Assembly (NCBI GenBank): GCA_036703275.1
Contig: DATNPK010000111.1
Span: 124,001 to 188,000, forward strand
DNA from: Coleofasciculaceae cyanobacterium
Lineage (GTDB): Bacteria > Cyanobacteriota > Cyanobacteriia > Cyanobacteriales > Xenococcaceae
DNA length: 64,000 bases
Direction: 5' to 3'
The notes under the pieces are model-generated. The model was not told the DNA's origin, ran no database searches, and saw only the letters and a program-made list of their open reading frames with translations. Positions within the stretch are counted from its first letter, which is position 1. Each line of letters starts with the position of its first letter. Positions 22,210 to 28,346 of the stretch are shown one piece after another. A program made the translations under genes and the position numbers.

Positions 22210-22468
22210 CAGTTGTAACCTTATTAAGAATTTGTACCTACCATTATAAGTAATATAAATTTTTGTTGCAATAAATTTACAAACAGGTCGGTACTAAGGT
22301 TATTTGATTAAGAAAAATTGCGCTCAGGGTAATTTATTTAAACTTTTGCTACACGAGCTTGACTAAAATTTTGGCAACCATTGGAAAACGCTTAAGTAAG
22401 TCAGCTCAAAGTTACTATGTCGTTTTCAATAGCGTAGTCTACACCTAAATTCAGGCAACCTAAATCGA

Positions 22469-22675
22469 TTACAGTTTTTTGTCTATCCATTGTTTGGCTC
22501 TTTTAATTGCATCCATAGGAGTCATGGCGCTAGGAACTGCAACAGCACAACCTCGATCGTGGTTAACCCAGGCTGCATAAATACAATGTCCATCCAATTG
22601 ATCGCGGTCAATTTGAATTTTGCAGCCACGGTAAGCAAAAGAAAGAATAATCTGAGGATAATGAGGTTCGCTCAT
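22469..22675 (-). CDS. Conserved small protein of unknown function
   Basis: 68 residues, MSEPHYPQIILSFAYRGCKI and ending AIKRAKQWIDKKL. Soluble, with no recognised domain. It reads like a small alpha/beta protein (two strands, then MTPMDAIKRAKQWID as a helix). The open frame, sensible composition and isolated position support a real gene, and I recall similar small proteins in other cyanobacteria. The frame on the opposite strand over the same bases looks non-coding. Confidence 0.6.
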   Translation of the reverse strand: MSEPHYPQIILSFAYRGCKIQIDRDQLDGHCIYAAWVNHDRGCAVAVPSAMTPMDAIKRAKQWIDKKL

Positions 22676-22734
22676 AATGTGTCTGTGTTTTACTAAAATG
22701 CAACGCCGTAATTAAGATTAAGTAGTTAAATCGG

Positions 22735-22884
22735 TTATTTTCCTAGACTTCGGCAGTTTTTATCTCGCTCTCTTGCCTCAACAATATTCCAAACTTCTTG
22801 CCATCTTTCAGAAATTATGGTCGTCATTTTATTTAATTGCCATTGAGAAACGCGGTTGTTGTGATTATTTTTGACTCTGTTCAT
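22735..22884 (-). CDS. Small hypothetical protein
   Basis: 49 codons, MNRVKNNHNNRVSQWQLNKM and then a helical stretch ISERWQEVWNIVEARERDKN. No domain recognised. The amphipathic, charged helix gives it a protein-like look, but there is no independent support; chance is possible. It lies between the 68-residue protein and sodB on the same strand. Confidence 0.35.
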   Translation of the reverse strand: MNRVKNNHNNRVSQWQLNKMTTIISERWQEVWNIVEARERDKNCRSLGK

Positions 22885-22955
22885 GATTTTCTTGAATATA
22901 AAATTAAACGGATATTAAAATTAAATATCCTAAATATCCGCCTAGTAATTGATGC

Positions 22956-23555
22956 CTATGCAGCAGCTAAATTTTGAGCGACAAAATCCCAGTTGACTAG
23001 CTTACCGATAAAATTATCAATATAATCAGGACGTTTATTTTGATAATCAAGATAATAAGCGTGTTCCCAAACATCCATAGTTAATAAGGGAATTTGTTCT
23101 TTAGTTAAAGGATTATCAGCATTAAGAGTTTTAGTAACTTTGAGGGTATCGCCATCTAGCACTAACCAAGCCCAACCGCTACCAAACTGAGTTGCACCTG
23201 CATTTTTGAAAGCTTCGATAAACTGCTCAAAACTACCAAAGTCAGCCTCAATTTTTTTAGCTAATTCGCCAGTAGGAGTGCCGCTGGCGTTAGGTTTCAT
23301 ACAGTGCCAGTAAAAAGTATGATTCCAAGCTTGGGCAGCATTATTAAATAATCCGCTTTTACTTTCATCTTTTGCTATTGCTTTAATAACTTCTTCAATT
23401 GGTTTGTTATCCCATTCTGTATCTTTAACTGCGTCATTGTACTTACTGACATACGCAGCATGGTGTTTATCGTGATGAAACTCCAGAGTGCTTTTAGAAA
23501 TTAATGGTTCTAATGCCGTGTAATCGTAGGGAAGAGATGGTAATTCGTAAGCCAT
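22956..23555 (-). CDS. sodB: Iron superoxide dismutase
   Basis: 199 residues. Dismutates superoxide to peroxide and oxygen in the cytosol. Metal ligands are H27 (EFHHDKHHAAYV), H79 (AWNHTFYW), D161 and H165 (DVWEHAYYLDYQNKRPDY). The residues AAQAWNHTFYW and QFGSGWAWLV mark the iron rather than manganese type. No signal peptide. About 116 bases upstream of its start is a conserved two-box element also found ahead of ocp, suggesting shared light or oxidative control. Confidence 0.95.
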   Translation of the reverse strand: MAYELPSLPYDYTALEPLISKSTLEFHHDKHHAAYVSKYNDAVKDTEWDNKPIEEVIKAIAKDESKSGLFNNAAQAWNHTFYWHCMKPNASGTPTGELAKKIEADFGSFEQFIEAFKNAGATQFGSGWAWLVLDGDTLKVTKTLNADNPLTKEQIPLLTMDVWEHAYYLDYQNKRPDYIDNFIGKLVNWDFVAQNLAAA

Positions 23556-23967
23556 GAGTATTCGTCCTCTCTCAGAAAATATACGTACTGAAGTTGAAGA
23601 ATATTACAGTCTGTTTGTAGACCCATTAGCTGTAGGCAACAGACTGTGAGCCAATTTTCAACTTCTTTGCTGATAGTAACGTAGTTTTGACTCTTGCCAT
23701 ATCCGCATCCCCAGGAGGGGGAATAGAAAGTATATGGAGACGATGTATTGAGTTGCTCCAGTAAAATATTTTATTGTGGCTACTCACTATTTGCTACTCA
23801 ATCTCTAGCATTCGCGAAGCAGATGCAACATCAAATAAGAAAGAGTTGGGTAAAAACTTAGATCAAGATTTCGCATTGCCGAAAGGCTTAAGGAAATACT
23901 CGAATAGGCAGCTTCTAACTCCAACTCTTATAGATTAAATATTTAATTATCTTGAGAATATTGAGAT
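23556..23967. other. sodB leader and frp downstream region
   Basis: No gene seen. Contains the conserved two-box element at 23671-23730. The 150 bases nearest frp are AT-rich without a clear hairpin. Confidence 0.45.
23671..23730 (-). promoter_or_regulatory. Conserved two-box element upstream of sodB
   Basis: On the plus strand: TGATAGTAACGTAGTTT (23671-23687), 24 bases, then CAGGAGGGGG (23712-23721) followed by AATAGAAA. The same arrangement with exactly the same 24-base spacer lies upstream of ocp at 25728. Both precede minus-strand photoprotection genes. On the minus strand TACTAT inside the first box could be a -10 hexamer, which would place CCCCCTCCTG near -50 as an activator site. This reading is inference. 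Confidence 0.6.
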
Positions 23968-24264
23968 TTACATCCGTGCTAACGCTGATATTTTAGATTG
24001 CATTTCTGGTTGCAAATCTTTTAGCTCATGGAGATGTAGCCATCCTTCTTTTACTAATTGAGCAAAGTCAAAAATAATAGTAGAAGAATTATAGTCATAC
24101 TTGCCATCTATTTCGTATCTTTTAGTACTCAATAAATCGTGTATATACCATAAATCCTTGAGTTCTGTAATCGAACTAGTGCGATCCCTAACACTGGCGA
24201 TTAAAGCCGATGTTTCTCTTTTATAGGCTGTTTGCAAAAGTTCTTTTGCTGTACTTTCCTCCAT
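23968..24264 (-). CDS. frp: Fluorescence recovery protein
   Basis: 98 residues, all-helical. FRP binds activated (red) OCP, detaches it from the phycobilisome and speeds its return to the orange form. The conserved active-surface residues are present with the right spacing: W39, H42, D43 and R49 in LWYIHDLLSTKRYEIDGKYD (Synechocystis W50, H53, D54, R60). The C-terminal VKEGWLHLHEL is also typical. It is the next gene after ocp on the same strand with a 264-base gap, so it may have its own promoter as in other cyanobacteria. Confidence 0.93.
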   Translation of the reverse strand: MEESTAKELLQTAYKRETSALIASVRDRTSSITELKDLWYIHDLLSTKRYEIDGKYDYNSSTIIFDFAQLVKEGWLHLHELKDLQPEMQSKISALARM

Positions 24265-24528
24265 TTTAGATTACTTAATCGCACTTACTTGTACTGGTAA
24301 CATTAATATTAAATTTTGATTTAATACATAGGTTTTAATTATGGTAATTCTAACATAAAAGCTTTAATTATAACCTTAGTAAAAAATTTATATTTATAAG
24401 TAATAAATAGTCGATCGCTTGATTAAATATTAGCGATCGACCAAAAATGTATTTAATTAATTATCTCTCTTTAGTAAGAGAAAAGAAAGTTGGATGTTAA
24501 TTAGTCGATTAACGATTAGGGGTTGGGT

Positions 24529-25488
24529 TTAACCAGCTAAATTGAGTAATTCTTTGGGAGATGCTAAAAGATCGATCGCCACAAAGAAAATTTTGTTTTC
24601 AGAATTAAGCAAAAATCTCCAGGACATATTCATCCCAACGCCAGCACCAAACCAAGGAGTCTGCACTTTTCCCGTGACTTTAATTTGAGTGTATCCATCT
24701 TCAGCCGGTTCAGAAACACCACGCTCTGGGGCTAATTTCAGATTAGGACATTCCTCTTTGAAAAATCTCAACACCGCATCTTGTCCAACAATTGGTCTTT
24801 TGAAAGGAGGTTGCAATGCACTATCGGAAATAAATAGTTTAATCAATTCATCAAAATCATTAGCATTTAACAAGTTCATGTAGTTTAATACAGTCTGATT
24901 AGTTACCCCTGCAATAGCAACTTCGGTTCGCTTGGACATTTCTGTGGGAGGAGCAACTGGTTCACTTACTCTTTGGAAACTTCCCATTTTAGAAATGTCA
25001 AATCCCATATCTAGCACTGTATTTCTCAATACCGTAATTTGTTGACCCGCATCTAACCCTTGGAGGGTTTGCAAGACAGCATTAGCATTGGCTGATAGCT
25101 TATAGCCTTTGGGAATAGGAGCAACAATCCCCTTTTCCATCCATTCTCCCAAACGAAACCAAAAGCCTAGCTTAATGTTGGCAGTCCAAGTAGCATAAGT
25201 ACGGCAAATTGGAGTGTCTGCACGATTCGCTAGATCGCACATTACTTGAGACTGTTGCTGGAAGTTCATCTTCTTAATTTCATCAAGAGTAGGCTCAGCA
25301 AATTGCATATTAGCAGCTCCAGGAGCAGCAACTGTAATAGTTTTACCCATCTCTAAATATGCAAACCAAATCCATGCTAATTGGTCTTCTGCACTAAGCT
25401 GATTGAATCTAGCTGTTAATGCTGGCACGGCATCAGCAGATAAGGTATCGGGAAATATGTTACGAGCTGAGTCAATAGTAAATGGCAT
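24529..25488 (-). CDS. ocp: Orange carotenoid protein
   Basis: 319 residues, full length. Blue-light photoreceptor that binds a keto-carotenoid and quenches phycobilisomes. The all-helical N-terminal domain (1-165) carries W41, Y44 and W110 of the carotenoid tunnel and R155 of the inter-domain salt bridge. The NTF2-like C-terminal domain (about 190-315) carries the keto-group partners Y203 and W290 (Synechocystis Y201 and W288) and a Glu pair at 245-246 for the salt bridge. Presence of frp next to it suggests the OCP1 type. A two-box element shared with sodB lies 240 bases upstream. Confidence 0.97.
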   Translation of the reverse strand: MPFTIDSARNIFPDTLSADAVPALTARFNQLSAEDQLAWIWFAYLEMGKTITVAAPGAANMQFAEPTLDEIKKMNFQQQSQVMCDLANRADTPICRTYATWTANIKLGFWFRLGEWMEKGIVAPIPKGYKLSANANAVLQTLQGLDAGQQITVLRNTVLDMGFDISKMGSFQRVSEPVAPPTEMSKRTEVAIAGVTNQTVLNYMNLLNANDFDELIKLFISDSALQPPFKRPIVGQDAVLRFFKEECPNLKLAPERGVSEPAEDGYTQIKVTGKVQTPWFGAGVGMNMSWRFLLNSENKIFFVAIDLLASPKELLNLAG

Positions 25489-25907
25489 AGATGATCTTCC
25501 AATAAGTTATCGTGCAATTAAATTAAACAACGTTGATGATTTCCAACGTTGACTCTATTGTAAACATATACTTAGGAATATTAAAATTTTTTACAAAAAT
25601 TTCAGTTTTATTTACATAACTTGATTTCTATGGTAGTGCAATAATCATCACTATCTAATTGAAACCAAATCTTTTATCTATTTATTAATTTGTTAAATAG
25701 ATCTACATCCTCTTCTAATGCCATTGGTGATAGTAACGTAGTTTGGAGCGATCAAAAATACTTATCCTCAGGAGGGGGAAGAGAAAATAAAACTAATCCT
25801 GGTTGTTCTGAACAATTAAAAACTGCTGTAAATCTTTAAGCTAAATTCTGGTTAATCTATGATTTTATTGTTATCCTGAATTCTGCTTTATTCAGTAATT
25901 TGAGCGT
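25489..25907. other. Divergent region between ocp and GH116
   Basis: No gene seen. Holds the second copy of the two-box element (25728-25787). The leader between that element and ocp is long and AT-rich. Confidence 0.45.
25728..25787 (-). promoter_or_regulatory. Conserved two-box element upstream of ocp
   Basis: TGATAGTAACGTAGTTT (25728-25744), 24 bases, then CAGGAGGGGG (25769-25778) followed by AAGAGAAA. Boxes and spacing match the sodB copy; the spacer itself is not conserved. The conserved pattern inside AT-rich non-coding DNA argues for a functional site, either promoter with activator or a structured RNA. Confidence 0.6.
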
Positions 25908-28346
25908 ATGATACCCAACCAAAAGCCAAATCCTCAGATTCCCAATTGTGCCTGGCAACGTCCCATCGGCAAAGGATGGGACAATCCTTACACTGTTCGC
26001 TATGCCAGTAATTTGGATGATGGACCTTGGCATGGAATGCCCCTTGGTGGGATGGGTGCGGGGTGTATTGGGAGATCGACCAAAGGAGATTTTAACCTAT
26101 GGCACTTAGATGGTGGGGAACATATTTTCAAGTCTCTTCCCGCCTGTCAATTTAGTGTTTTTGAACAGACAGAATCGGCAACTCAGGCTTATGCTTTGTG
26201 TACGGAAGCACCAGAGGATAACACTTTATCTCGTTGGGCTTGGTATCCAAAAGAGAAGGGTATGTATAGCGCGCTGTATCCTCGCAGTTGGTTTGAGTAT
26301 CAAGAAGTTTTTGCGGCAGATATAACCTGTGAGCAGTTTTCGCCGATATGGGCAGAGAATTACCAAGAATCTAGCTATCCAATAGTTAATTTTGACTGGA
26401 CGGTACACAATCCTACCGATAAACCGATTACTCTAAGTATCATGCTGACTTGGCAAAATACTGTCGGCTGGTTTACCAACGCAATTAAATCACCCACAAT
26501 TGAGGTGCGAGATGATGGTAGTCCAGAATATGAGTATCAACCTAAATGGCGTGACAGCACAGGAAACTATAATGAGTGGATACAGGATAACTATCGGGTA
26601 GGCTGTTTGTTAAATCGGGTATATGCGAAGCGTCGTCCTTTAGGACAGCCTCATGAATCAGTACAAGAAGGAGACGGACAAATTGCGATCGCCTCAGTCT
26701 ATAATCCTAGCGTGGAAGTATTTTATCTCAGTCGTTGGAATCCTGATGGAGACGGTGCAGAAGTATGGGACTATTTTGCAGCCGATGGCTCGTTACCCGA
26801 TCTACAAAATGAAACCCCAGCCGATCCTGGTGAACAAATTGCCTGTGCGATCGCAATTCGGTTTAAGATCGAGCCAGGTAAGACTAAGAAAATTCCCTTT
26901 ACTTTAGCTTGGGACTTGCCTATTACTGAATTTAAGCAAGGCATTAATTATTATCGTCGTTATACAGACTTTTTCGGGCGCAATGGTAAAAATGCCTGGA
27001 GTATGGTTAGAACTTCTCTCAAGCATGGTGAGATGTGGCGGGAAAAAATCCAGGCTTGGCAACAGCCAATTTTGCAACGGGATGACTTACCCGACTGGTT
27101 TAAGATGGCGTTGTTTAACGAGCTATACTTGCTGGCTGATGGTGGTACTCTCTGGACAGCAGCTACTGAAAACGATCCTGTAGGGCAGTTTGGGGTATTG
27201 GAGTGCATGGATTATCGCTGGTATGAAAGCCTAGATGTGCGCCTGTACGGTTCATTTGGCTTGATGATGTTGTGGCCACAATTAGATAAATCTGTTTTAG
27301 AAGCCTTTGCCAGAGCCATTCCCGATCATGATGATACACCGCGCACTGTAGGTTACGATCGCTCTAGTGCCATCAGAAAAGAAGGTGGTGCAACGCCTCA
27401 CGATCTGGGCGCACCAAATGAACATCCGTGGGAGGAAACTAACTATACTTCCTATCAAGATTGTAATCAATGGAAAGATTTACCCAGCGATTTTGTCTTG
27501 CAAGTATACCGAGACTATCTGCTAACAGGCGCTCGAGATACTGACTTTCTCTGGGAATGTTGGCACAGTATTACTCAAACCTTGGCATATCTTAAGAAAT
27601 TCGATCGCGACAACGATGGCATTCCCGAAAATTCTGGCGCACCCGATCAAACTTTTGATGACTGGAAGTTAAGAGGCATAAGTGCCTATTGTGGCGGTTT
27701 ATGGATAGCCGCCTTAGAAGCAGCAATTAAAATCGGTAAAATTCTGAGCGACAATCCGCCGACAAACCCCAGTCTACAAGTATCGGACTTTTGTGCAGGT
27801 ATCGAAAATACGATTGATAACTATCATAGTTGGTTAGAGCAATCGCGATCGCTCTATCATAATGCTTTGTGGAATGGCGAATACTATCGTCTCGATACCG
27901 AAAGTGGTTCAAATGCAGTGATGGCAGATCAACTCTGTGGACAATTCTATGCTCGTTTATTAAATTTACCTGACGTAGTAGAAGAACAATACATTAAGTC
28001 TACTTTAAACAAAATTTATGATGCCTGTTTTCTCAAATTTCATCACGGCAAATATGGCGCAGCCAACGGCGTTTTACCCGATGGAAGTCCAGTTAATCCC
28101 AATGATACCCATCCCCTAGAAGTCTGGACAGGAATCAACTTTGGTTTGGCTGCTTTTATGATTCAAATGGGTATGAAAGAAGAAGCTTTCCAACTAACAG
28201 AAACTGTAGTTAAGCAAGTATACGAAAATGGCTTACAGTTTCGCACTCCTGAAGCTATTACCGCAGTTGGTACTTTTAGAGCGAGTCATTATTTAAGGGC
28301 GATGGCAATTTGGGGTATTTATGGTGTTTTGACTGATTGGAAGTAG
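25908..28346 (+). CDS. GH116 beta-glucosidase / non-lysosomal glucosylceramidase-like
   Basis: 812 residues. Retaining glycoside hydrolase of the GBA2/TxGH116 family, acting on beta-glucosides or glucosylated lipids. The N-terminal beta domain has GMPLGGMGAGCIGRS; the C-terminal (alpha/alpha)6 barrel holds the nucleophile E432 (VLECMDYRWYESLDV) and the probable acid/base D584 (PDQTFDDW). ENSGAPDQ and GLWIAALEA also match. No signal peptide. The segment VYAKRRPLGQPHE (near residue 245) is encoded by bases resembling the dispersed TCCTTTAGGAC repeat, possibly a small insertion. True substrate is unknown. Confidence 0.88.
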   Translation: MIPNQKPNPQIPNCAWQRPIGKGWDNPYTVRYASNLDDGPWHGMPLGGMGAGCIGRSTKGDFNLWHLDGGEHIFKSLPACQFSVFEQTESATQAYALCTEAPEDNTLSRWAWYPKEKGMYSALYPRSWFEYQEVFAADITCEQFSPIWAENYQESSYPIVNFDWTVHNPTDKPITLSIMLTWQNTVGWFTNAIKSPTIEVRDDGSPEYEYQPKWRDSTGNYNEWIQDNYRVGCLLNRVYAKRRPLGQPHESVQEGDGQIAIASVYNPSVEVFYLSRWNPDGDGAEVWDYFAADGSLPDLQNETPADPGEQIACAIAIRFKIEPGKTKKIPFTLAWDLPITEFKQGINYYRRYTDFFGRNGKNAWSMVRTSLKHGEMWREKIQAWQQPILQRDDLPDWFKMALFNELYLLADGGTLWTAATENDPVGQFGVLECMDYRWYESLDVRLYGSFGLMMLWPQLDKSVLEAFARAIPDHDDTPRTVGYDRSSAIRKEGGATPHDLGAPNEHPWEETNYTSYQDCNQWKDLPSDFVLQVYRDYLLTGARDTDFLWECWHSITQTLAYLKKFDRDNDGIPENSGAPDQTFDDWKLRGISAYCGGLWIAALEAAIKIGKILSDNPPTNPSLQVSDFCAGIENTIDNYHSWLEQSRSLYHNALWNGEYYRLDTESGSNAVMADQLCGQFYARLLNLPDVVEEQYIKSTLNKIYDACFLKFHHGKYGAANGVLPDGSPVNPNDTHPLEVWTGINFGLAAFMIQMGMKEEAFQLTETVVKQVYENGLQFRTPEAITAVGTFRASHYLRAMAIWGIYGVLTDWK

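Follow-up and report, generated by a model that had tools for sequence, protein, structure and literature searches.

A probable sodB promoter element of an undescribed kind in one cyanobacterial branch and its probable local duplicate upstream of ocp

Two minus-strand genes in the window, i.e. the whole stretch of 64,000 nucleotides analysed here, are preceded by what looks like the same pair of short boxes. Is this a common code of photo-oxidative defence genes, a dispersed repeat, a leader RNA or a promoter that was copied? The first-pass annotation had placed the copies at 23671-23730 and 25728-25787, and both were found there; the exact part of the pattern, TGATAGTAACGTAGTTT-N-CAGGAGGGGGAA, covers 23671-23723 and 25728-25780 in the window pattern scan. 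As claimed, box 1 agrees at 17/17 bases and box 2 over 12 bases, with one mismatch and AGAAA beyond, and 24 bases separate the boxes in both copies. Together the two boxes are found two times in the window and in 0/100 dinucleotide-preserving shuffles. The genome assembly (5.6 Mb, 116 contigs) has the same two instances, both in the window, and the backwards control none. The box 1 core alone (12 bases, 1 mismatch) gave 27 matches vs 31 in the backwards control. The pair of boxes is the special part; the box 1 core by itself is at background level. The spacer had been described as constant in length and unrelated in sequence. Its length is constant; its sequence, however, is not wholly unrelated, as ATCC(C/T) beside box 2 and several further positions are shared and are kept in relatives. 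Pfam bore out the genes named downstream, an Fe/Mn-type superoxide dismutase and an orange carotenoid protein, both on the minus strand. Alignments showed that the homologous unit is longer than the boxes: it spans some 100 bp and runs from an upstream box resembling GGTTAG to a point shortly beyond the predicted start. The features are collected in Table 1; the 68-aa product of orf68 had no Pfam or NCBIfam match.

Table 1. Positions of the sodB and ocp genes, their neighbours and the putative promoter parts in the window
Feature	Position	Strand	Basis
sodB promoter block, about 100 bp	23660..23760	-	alignments; homologous to ocp copy, conserved in family; edges approximate
Upstream box GGAGCAACTCAAT (alignment consensus GGGTTAGTCTCAATT) of sodB promoter	23745..23758	-	alignment
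TCCCC-N5-GGGGA inverted repeat, presumed protein-binding box, sodB promoter	23708..23722	-	sequence; core conserved in 19 copies
Predicted -10 hexamer TACTAT within AAACTACGTTACTATCA, sodB promoter	23673..23678	-	sequence, 19-copy alignment, spacing test
sodB, Fe/Mn-type superoxide dismutase	22956..23555	-	Pfam PF02777, PF00081
orf68, small conserved protein	22469..22675	-	follows sodB in many relatives
ocp distal promoter block, duplicate of sodB promoter (best explanation)	25717..25803	-	alignment; edges approximate
Upstream box GGATTAG of ocp copy	25794..25800	-	alignment
TCCCC-N5-GAGGA box of ocp copy	25765..25779	-	sequence; model R1 match E 5.8e-16 (copy was in model)
Predicted -10 hexamer TACTAT, ocp distal promoter	25730..25735	-	sequence, alignment, spacing test
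ocp, orange carotenoid protein	24529..25488	-	Pfam PF09150, PF02136
frp, fluorescence recovery protein	23968..24264	-	Pfam PF18032, E 2.7e-31

Read on the minus strand, the core consists of TCCCCCTCCNGGGGATNNGNATTTT, 19 bp and TACTAT. In an alignment of 19 copies box 2 ran on, free of gaps, into the supposed spacer as ATTCCCCCTCCnGGGGATGAGnATTTTTTATT, then AAACTACGnTACTATC. Mean column identity was 82% over the 60 core columns and 58% over the 184-column alignment of core and flanks. TCCCC-N5-GGGGA, followed by NNGNATTTT, stands at one fixed distance upstream of the conserved AAACTACGNTACTATC, and a further upstream box, GGGTTAGTCTCAATT, starts about 38 bp upstream of TCCCC. Because the 3-mismatch two-box search had itself imposed the gap, the spacing was re-tested without a fixed gap. 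With this search, blind to spacing, TANNAT was located exactly 19 bp after the half-box in 19/19 promoter half-boxes. TACTAT would then act as a -10 hexamer with the start about 7 bp further on, near 23666 for sodB and near 25723 for ocp. Counted from this predicted start the sodB box lies at about -56 to -42, and the box plus the NNGNATTTT arm would occupy about -56 to -32, where a -35 element would be. A TTGACA-like -35 at 17 bp was present in none of the 19 copies, and a plain sigma-70 promoter, TTGACA-N17-TATAAT at 17-bp spacing only, was rejected with at least three mismatches in each. Since such a -35 is missing, the box is probably the target of a DNA-binding protein that, like a class II activator, brings in the main sigma-70-type polymerase. 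The layout, judged by sequence evidence, is that of class II activator promoters: a box over the -35 region, a fixed distance to the -10 and no -35 consensus. From the position of the box alone we infer activation rather than repression. The best reading is thus one of the two offered before, a promoter that depends on an activator, in which TACTAT is the -10 and the C-rich box lies near -50; weaker matches outside the family of the window genome keep the same layout.

The box might also be an operator, occupied by a repressor that is released from the inverted repeat under oxidative or metal stress. Its core is an inverted repeat of the sort that dimeric regulators use, with an arm that reaches into the -35 region, and C/G-rich repeats are reminiscent of CsoR/RcnR-type operators. 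However, no constant distance from the -10 is required of a repressor site, and this distance was fixed in all 19 half-boxes although they had been found without the -10. The fixed distance and the lack of a good -35 fit activator dependence better, and we consider repression unlikely.

Two further readings place the function in RNA. In the first, the C-rich inverted repeat and a T-run form a hairpin that serves as intrinsic terminator or as attenuator, and the second box has no bearing on it. CCCC-N4-GGGG followed by ATTTTTT does look terminator-like in many copies, and two of three weak family matches are located just after reading frames (G015, G022). Yet the T-run is absent in the sodB copy of the window and shortened to TTTT in the sodB copy of G012, in G017 and in G013; the pairing is in part disrupted in G009, G013, G016, G020 and the ocp copy of the window, with 0 compensatory pairs. 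Furthermore, another box is conserved alongside at a fixed distance, and the upstream reading frames differ in length and strand between copies. A terminator is therefore quite improbable. In the second reading, which the first-pass annotation had also raised, sodB and ocp share a structured leader RNA. The element is indeed 5' of the genes, with about 110 nt (sodB) and about 235 nt (ocp) between predicted start and start codon. Against this, positions 22400-26000 had no Rfam match at E up to 1, and covariation was absent (0 pairs with compensatory change), which speaks against a known structured RNA family. In addition, the two G012 copies cease to be similar close to the predicted start, and a transcript would therefore contain little of the shared sequence. 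A common leader is barely credible.

How far does the element reach? Searched in 100 genomes with up to three mismatches and the fixed gap, it gave 14 sites in 11 genomes and none in backwards controls. Eleven sites were before sodB, two before ocp (G000, G012) and one before a truncated sodB (G002). The family of the window genome comprises 27 genomes, 18 of them with a sodB orthologue at 83% identity or more. Because the sodB of G019 runs off its contig end and its upstream region is cut off, this genome was left out of the sodB counts. The element precedes sodB in 14/17 family genomes with a readable sodB upstream region; counted by gene it stands at 16/19 readable sodB copies, including the second sodB of G004 and of G016. 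It was absent upstream of sodB in the readable family genomes G011, G014 and G018 and is thus dispensable for sodB. In relatives, sodB is the constant neighbour of the element and the reading frames on its upstream side vary in length and strand; the element therefore belongs to sodB.

A sequence-only model, R1, was built from the 19 copies. In the 100 genomes, searched with stricter filters by which weak matches may be lost, it had 21 matches at E of 5.7e-8 or below; the next stood at 9.2e-4. The strong ones comprise 17 sodB, two ocp, one truncated sodB and one porin gene adjoining sodB. Nineteen of these 21 were in the model, whereas the truncated-sodB and porin sites were outside the set used to build it. 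Matches near E 0.001, to which the sites before pipX in G029 and G089 described below belong, were not counted; the eight places inspected match just part of the model or fall within reading frames. The upstream half-box alone, at up to three mismatches, matched 22 times in the 27 family genomes (control 0). Nineteen of these were promoters of sodB, ocp, the truncated sodB or the sodB-adjacent porin; the other three (G014, G015, G022; three mismatches each) were in or just after a reading frame. A dispersed repeat, the counter-reading named by the first-pass annotation, is ruled out by the copy numbers and positions in the genome itself (two copies) and in the 27 family genomes.

Some individual sites deserve mention. 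A third promoter copy of G016 (L174, G016:C24:392862-392912, E 5.7e-8) precedes a gene for a 535-aa porin with OprB and SLH domains (Pfam) that is located directly upstream of sodB. The copy in G002:C24 (L041, L210) stands before a truncated sodB of which tblastn covers residues 36-124 only. In G014 (L049, G014:C154:56401-56423) the C-rich box is inverted about 200 bp before sodB, with AATCCCCCTCCCCGGGATAAGTA on the other strand. In two families CCCC..GGGATGGGTATTTTT is found directly before pipX (L177 in G029, L179 in G089) and looks terminator-like; pipX was assigned by Pfam PipX for G029 and by eye for G089.

Do these sites form a multi-gene photo-oxidative regulon in which the sodB and ocp sites arose independently? 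Both genes protect against photo-oxidative damage, and G016 has its third site before the OprB porin gene. The strong non-sodB sites, however, adjoin sodB or precede a truncated sodB, and relaxing the upstream half to three mismatches added only three sites in the 27 family genomes, each within a reading frame or just behind one. An own element at ocp was seen only in G000 and G012 among 39 ocp loci (30 plus nine further paralogues; L196 and L198 with only about 250 and about 130 bp upstream). In the 100 genomes R1 found no other ocp site, and the remaining ocp places were covered by this search alone. The earlier hint at an element common to photo-oxidative genes did not hold up, as the strong sites are at sodB and the ocp site is limited to two genomes; a regulon of this kind is highly improbable.

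Where then did the ocp copy come from? The order sodB-orf68-ocp exists in G002, G003, G006, G008, G010 and G011. In five of these six frp is next after ocp (the G010 locus ends before), and in G008 and G011 a CbiX-type chelatase gene comes after frp. The element precedes sodB in five of the six, G011 being the one without. In G003 the ocp match (L095) is split, with a stop and a frame change near residue 36, possibly an assembly error. In the window and in G012, a Myxosarcina MAG, the order is P-ocp-frp-P-sodB-orf68, then a chelatase gene, and the opposite flank carries a GH116 gene. In G012 the likeness of the ocp and sodB copies spans about 100 bp, from GGATTA to just beyond TACTATC, and is lost on either side; it stops about 10 bp past the predicted start. 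From this comparison, a local duplication of the sodB promoter is the best explanation of the ocp copy. The block P-sodB-orf68-ocp-frp would have been duplicated in tandem, one copy losing sodB-orf68 and the other ocp-frp. Duplication and complementary losses would give exactly the order P-ocp-frp-P-sodB-orf68 and place ocp-frp under a sodB promoter in the common ancestor of the window species and G012. The window showed no remains of the genes presumed lost, and the support for this path is thus the gene order. Judged by eye, the second sodB promoter of G016 is a closer match to the ocp copies than is the sodB promoter of the window itself. The window's ocp copy is 17 bp shorter than that of G012 between upstream box and C-rich box; hence, the upstream box may not matter there. 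Near its start codon ocp keeps ATATGTTTACAATA or a variant in many family members (by eye). With this promoter-like sequence retained, ocp should have two promoters, a proximal one of its own and a distal one that would follow the sodB signal.

Outside the family 51 sodB upstream regions were scored (G027, G036, G045, G084 and G097 were left out; the G085 region had only about 196 bp). The six best, G074, G053, G038, G066, G088 and G065, come from four families and have the same layout, with the element starting 83-96 bp before the start codon. Their scores were reached by 0, 0, 0, 2, 1 and 8 of 200 shuffles, respectively. The next two, G039 (6/200) and G086 (2/200), had their best match at other positions and score against shuffles as well as the weakest three of the six. 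By these sequence scores the matches in G074, G053 and G038 are sound and those in G066, G088 and G065 are weak on score alone; the latter are credited because the position before the start codon is shared. The element was not seen at the sodB genes of G039 and G087, which belong to two of the four families, nor at that of G094 (f28). Elsewhere sodB has a different promoter and 5' end, TAAAAT-N6-GTTAAGTTTTATT, in 7/25 other families (e.g. L119, L123, L067). Under the strict pattern it was present in 14/51 out-of-family and 0/18 in-family regions and in 5/7000 shuffles. It occupies the promoter region of the orthologous gene, but unlike the window-family promoter it has no C-rich box. An exact pattern scan of a named genome collection, which overlooks divergent copies (the sodB copy of the window is one), returned 14 stretches with 15 sites. 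Seven stretches (eight sites) are cyanobacterial promoters of sodB or ocp, namely from Waterburya agarophytonicola, a Prochloraceae MAG, a Myxosarcina MAG (two sites), a Xenococcaceae MAG, an uncultured Pleurocapsa, Hyellaceae CSU_1_1 and Pleurocapsa sp. CCALA 161. The remaining seven come from various unrelated bacteria and archaea and from one more cyanobacterium; four of these fall within long reading frames, and no sodB was found downstream of any of the seven.

In sum, the element is best read as a promoter element of sodB in one cyanobacterial branch and of an undescribed kind. What the two genes share is the descent of one sodB promoter and not a common code of light genes. We favour, as the probable account, a lineage-specific sodB promoter whose ocp copy stems from local duplication and at which a protein bound to the box recruits polymerase. 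In the window genome and one close relative sodB and ocp may respond to the same signal. More tentatively, and with rather more doubt than confidence, the box could be the site of a dedicated, undescribed regulator with sodB as its sole ancestral target, and the promoter duplication could have rewired ocp-frp, a natural promoter capture. If so, phycobilisome quenching would be induced together with superoxide defence. With ocp-frp placed by a natural duplication behind a second, sodB-type promoter, the signal of this promoter should be readable from either gene. The box could serve as a bait for an undescribed sodB regulator in the Pleurocapsa-like group.

Several known motifs were compared with the 19 copies, and those for RpaB, PhoB, LexA, Fur and PerR fitted no better than they did shuffles. 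The HLR1 motif of RpaB consists of two direct KTTACAWW repeats 2 bp apart; the best copy had three mismatches, and the mean of best matches was 4.74 vs 4.59 in shuffles. The Pho box of PhoB, tandem YTTAAYYW repeats 3 bp apart, occurred in 0/19 copies at 0-1 mismatch (mean 3.84 vs 4.12 in shuffles). The NtcA site, GTA-N8-TAC, was present at 0-1 mismatch in 12/19 copies, at least one match being perfect, vs 51% of shuffles, i.e. no clear excess. Fur and PerR boxes, by their consensus sequences, had at least six mismatches in each of the 19 copies.

The box is undescribed in the literature searched, which included the available parts of PMC11126600, PMC5007503, PMC8136909 and PMC8739951, with most subscription journals outside its scope. 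The available text of PMC8136909 states in its discussion that specific elements for the redox control of ocp transcription remain unknown, and that of PMC8739951 gives software-predicted promoter elements for Fremyella ocp homologues. For sodB an indirect control by PrqR is described in the accessible portion of PMC5007503. In Synechocystis, as far as the available text of PMC11126600 goes, RpaB contacted the sodB promoter in a yeast one-hybrid screen, and PhoB is an activator of sodB by one-hybrid, EMSA and mutant data. The window-family copies differ from this PhoB control in that they do not contain the two-repeat Pho box. With the RpaB/HLR1 high-light promoters they have in common the control of light and redox genes, but they do not fit HLR1 (4.7 mismatches vs 4.6 in shuffles). 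Like the NtcA-type class II promoters of cyanobacteria they combine a box over the -35 region with a conserved -10 and no good -35; unlike these, they have TCCCC-N5-GGGGA as their box, its centre at about -49 and one asymmetric arm extending to -32.
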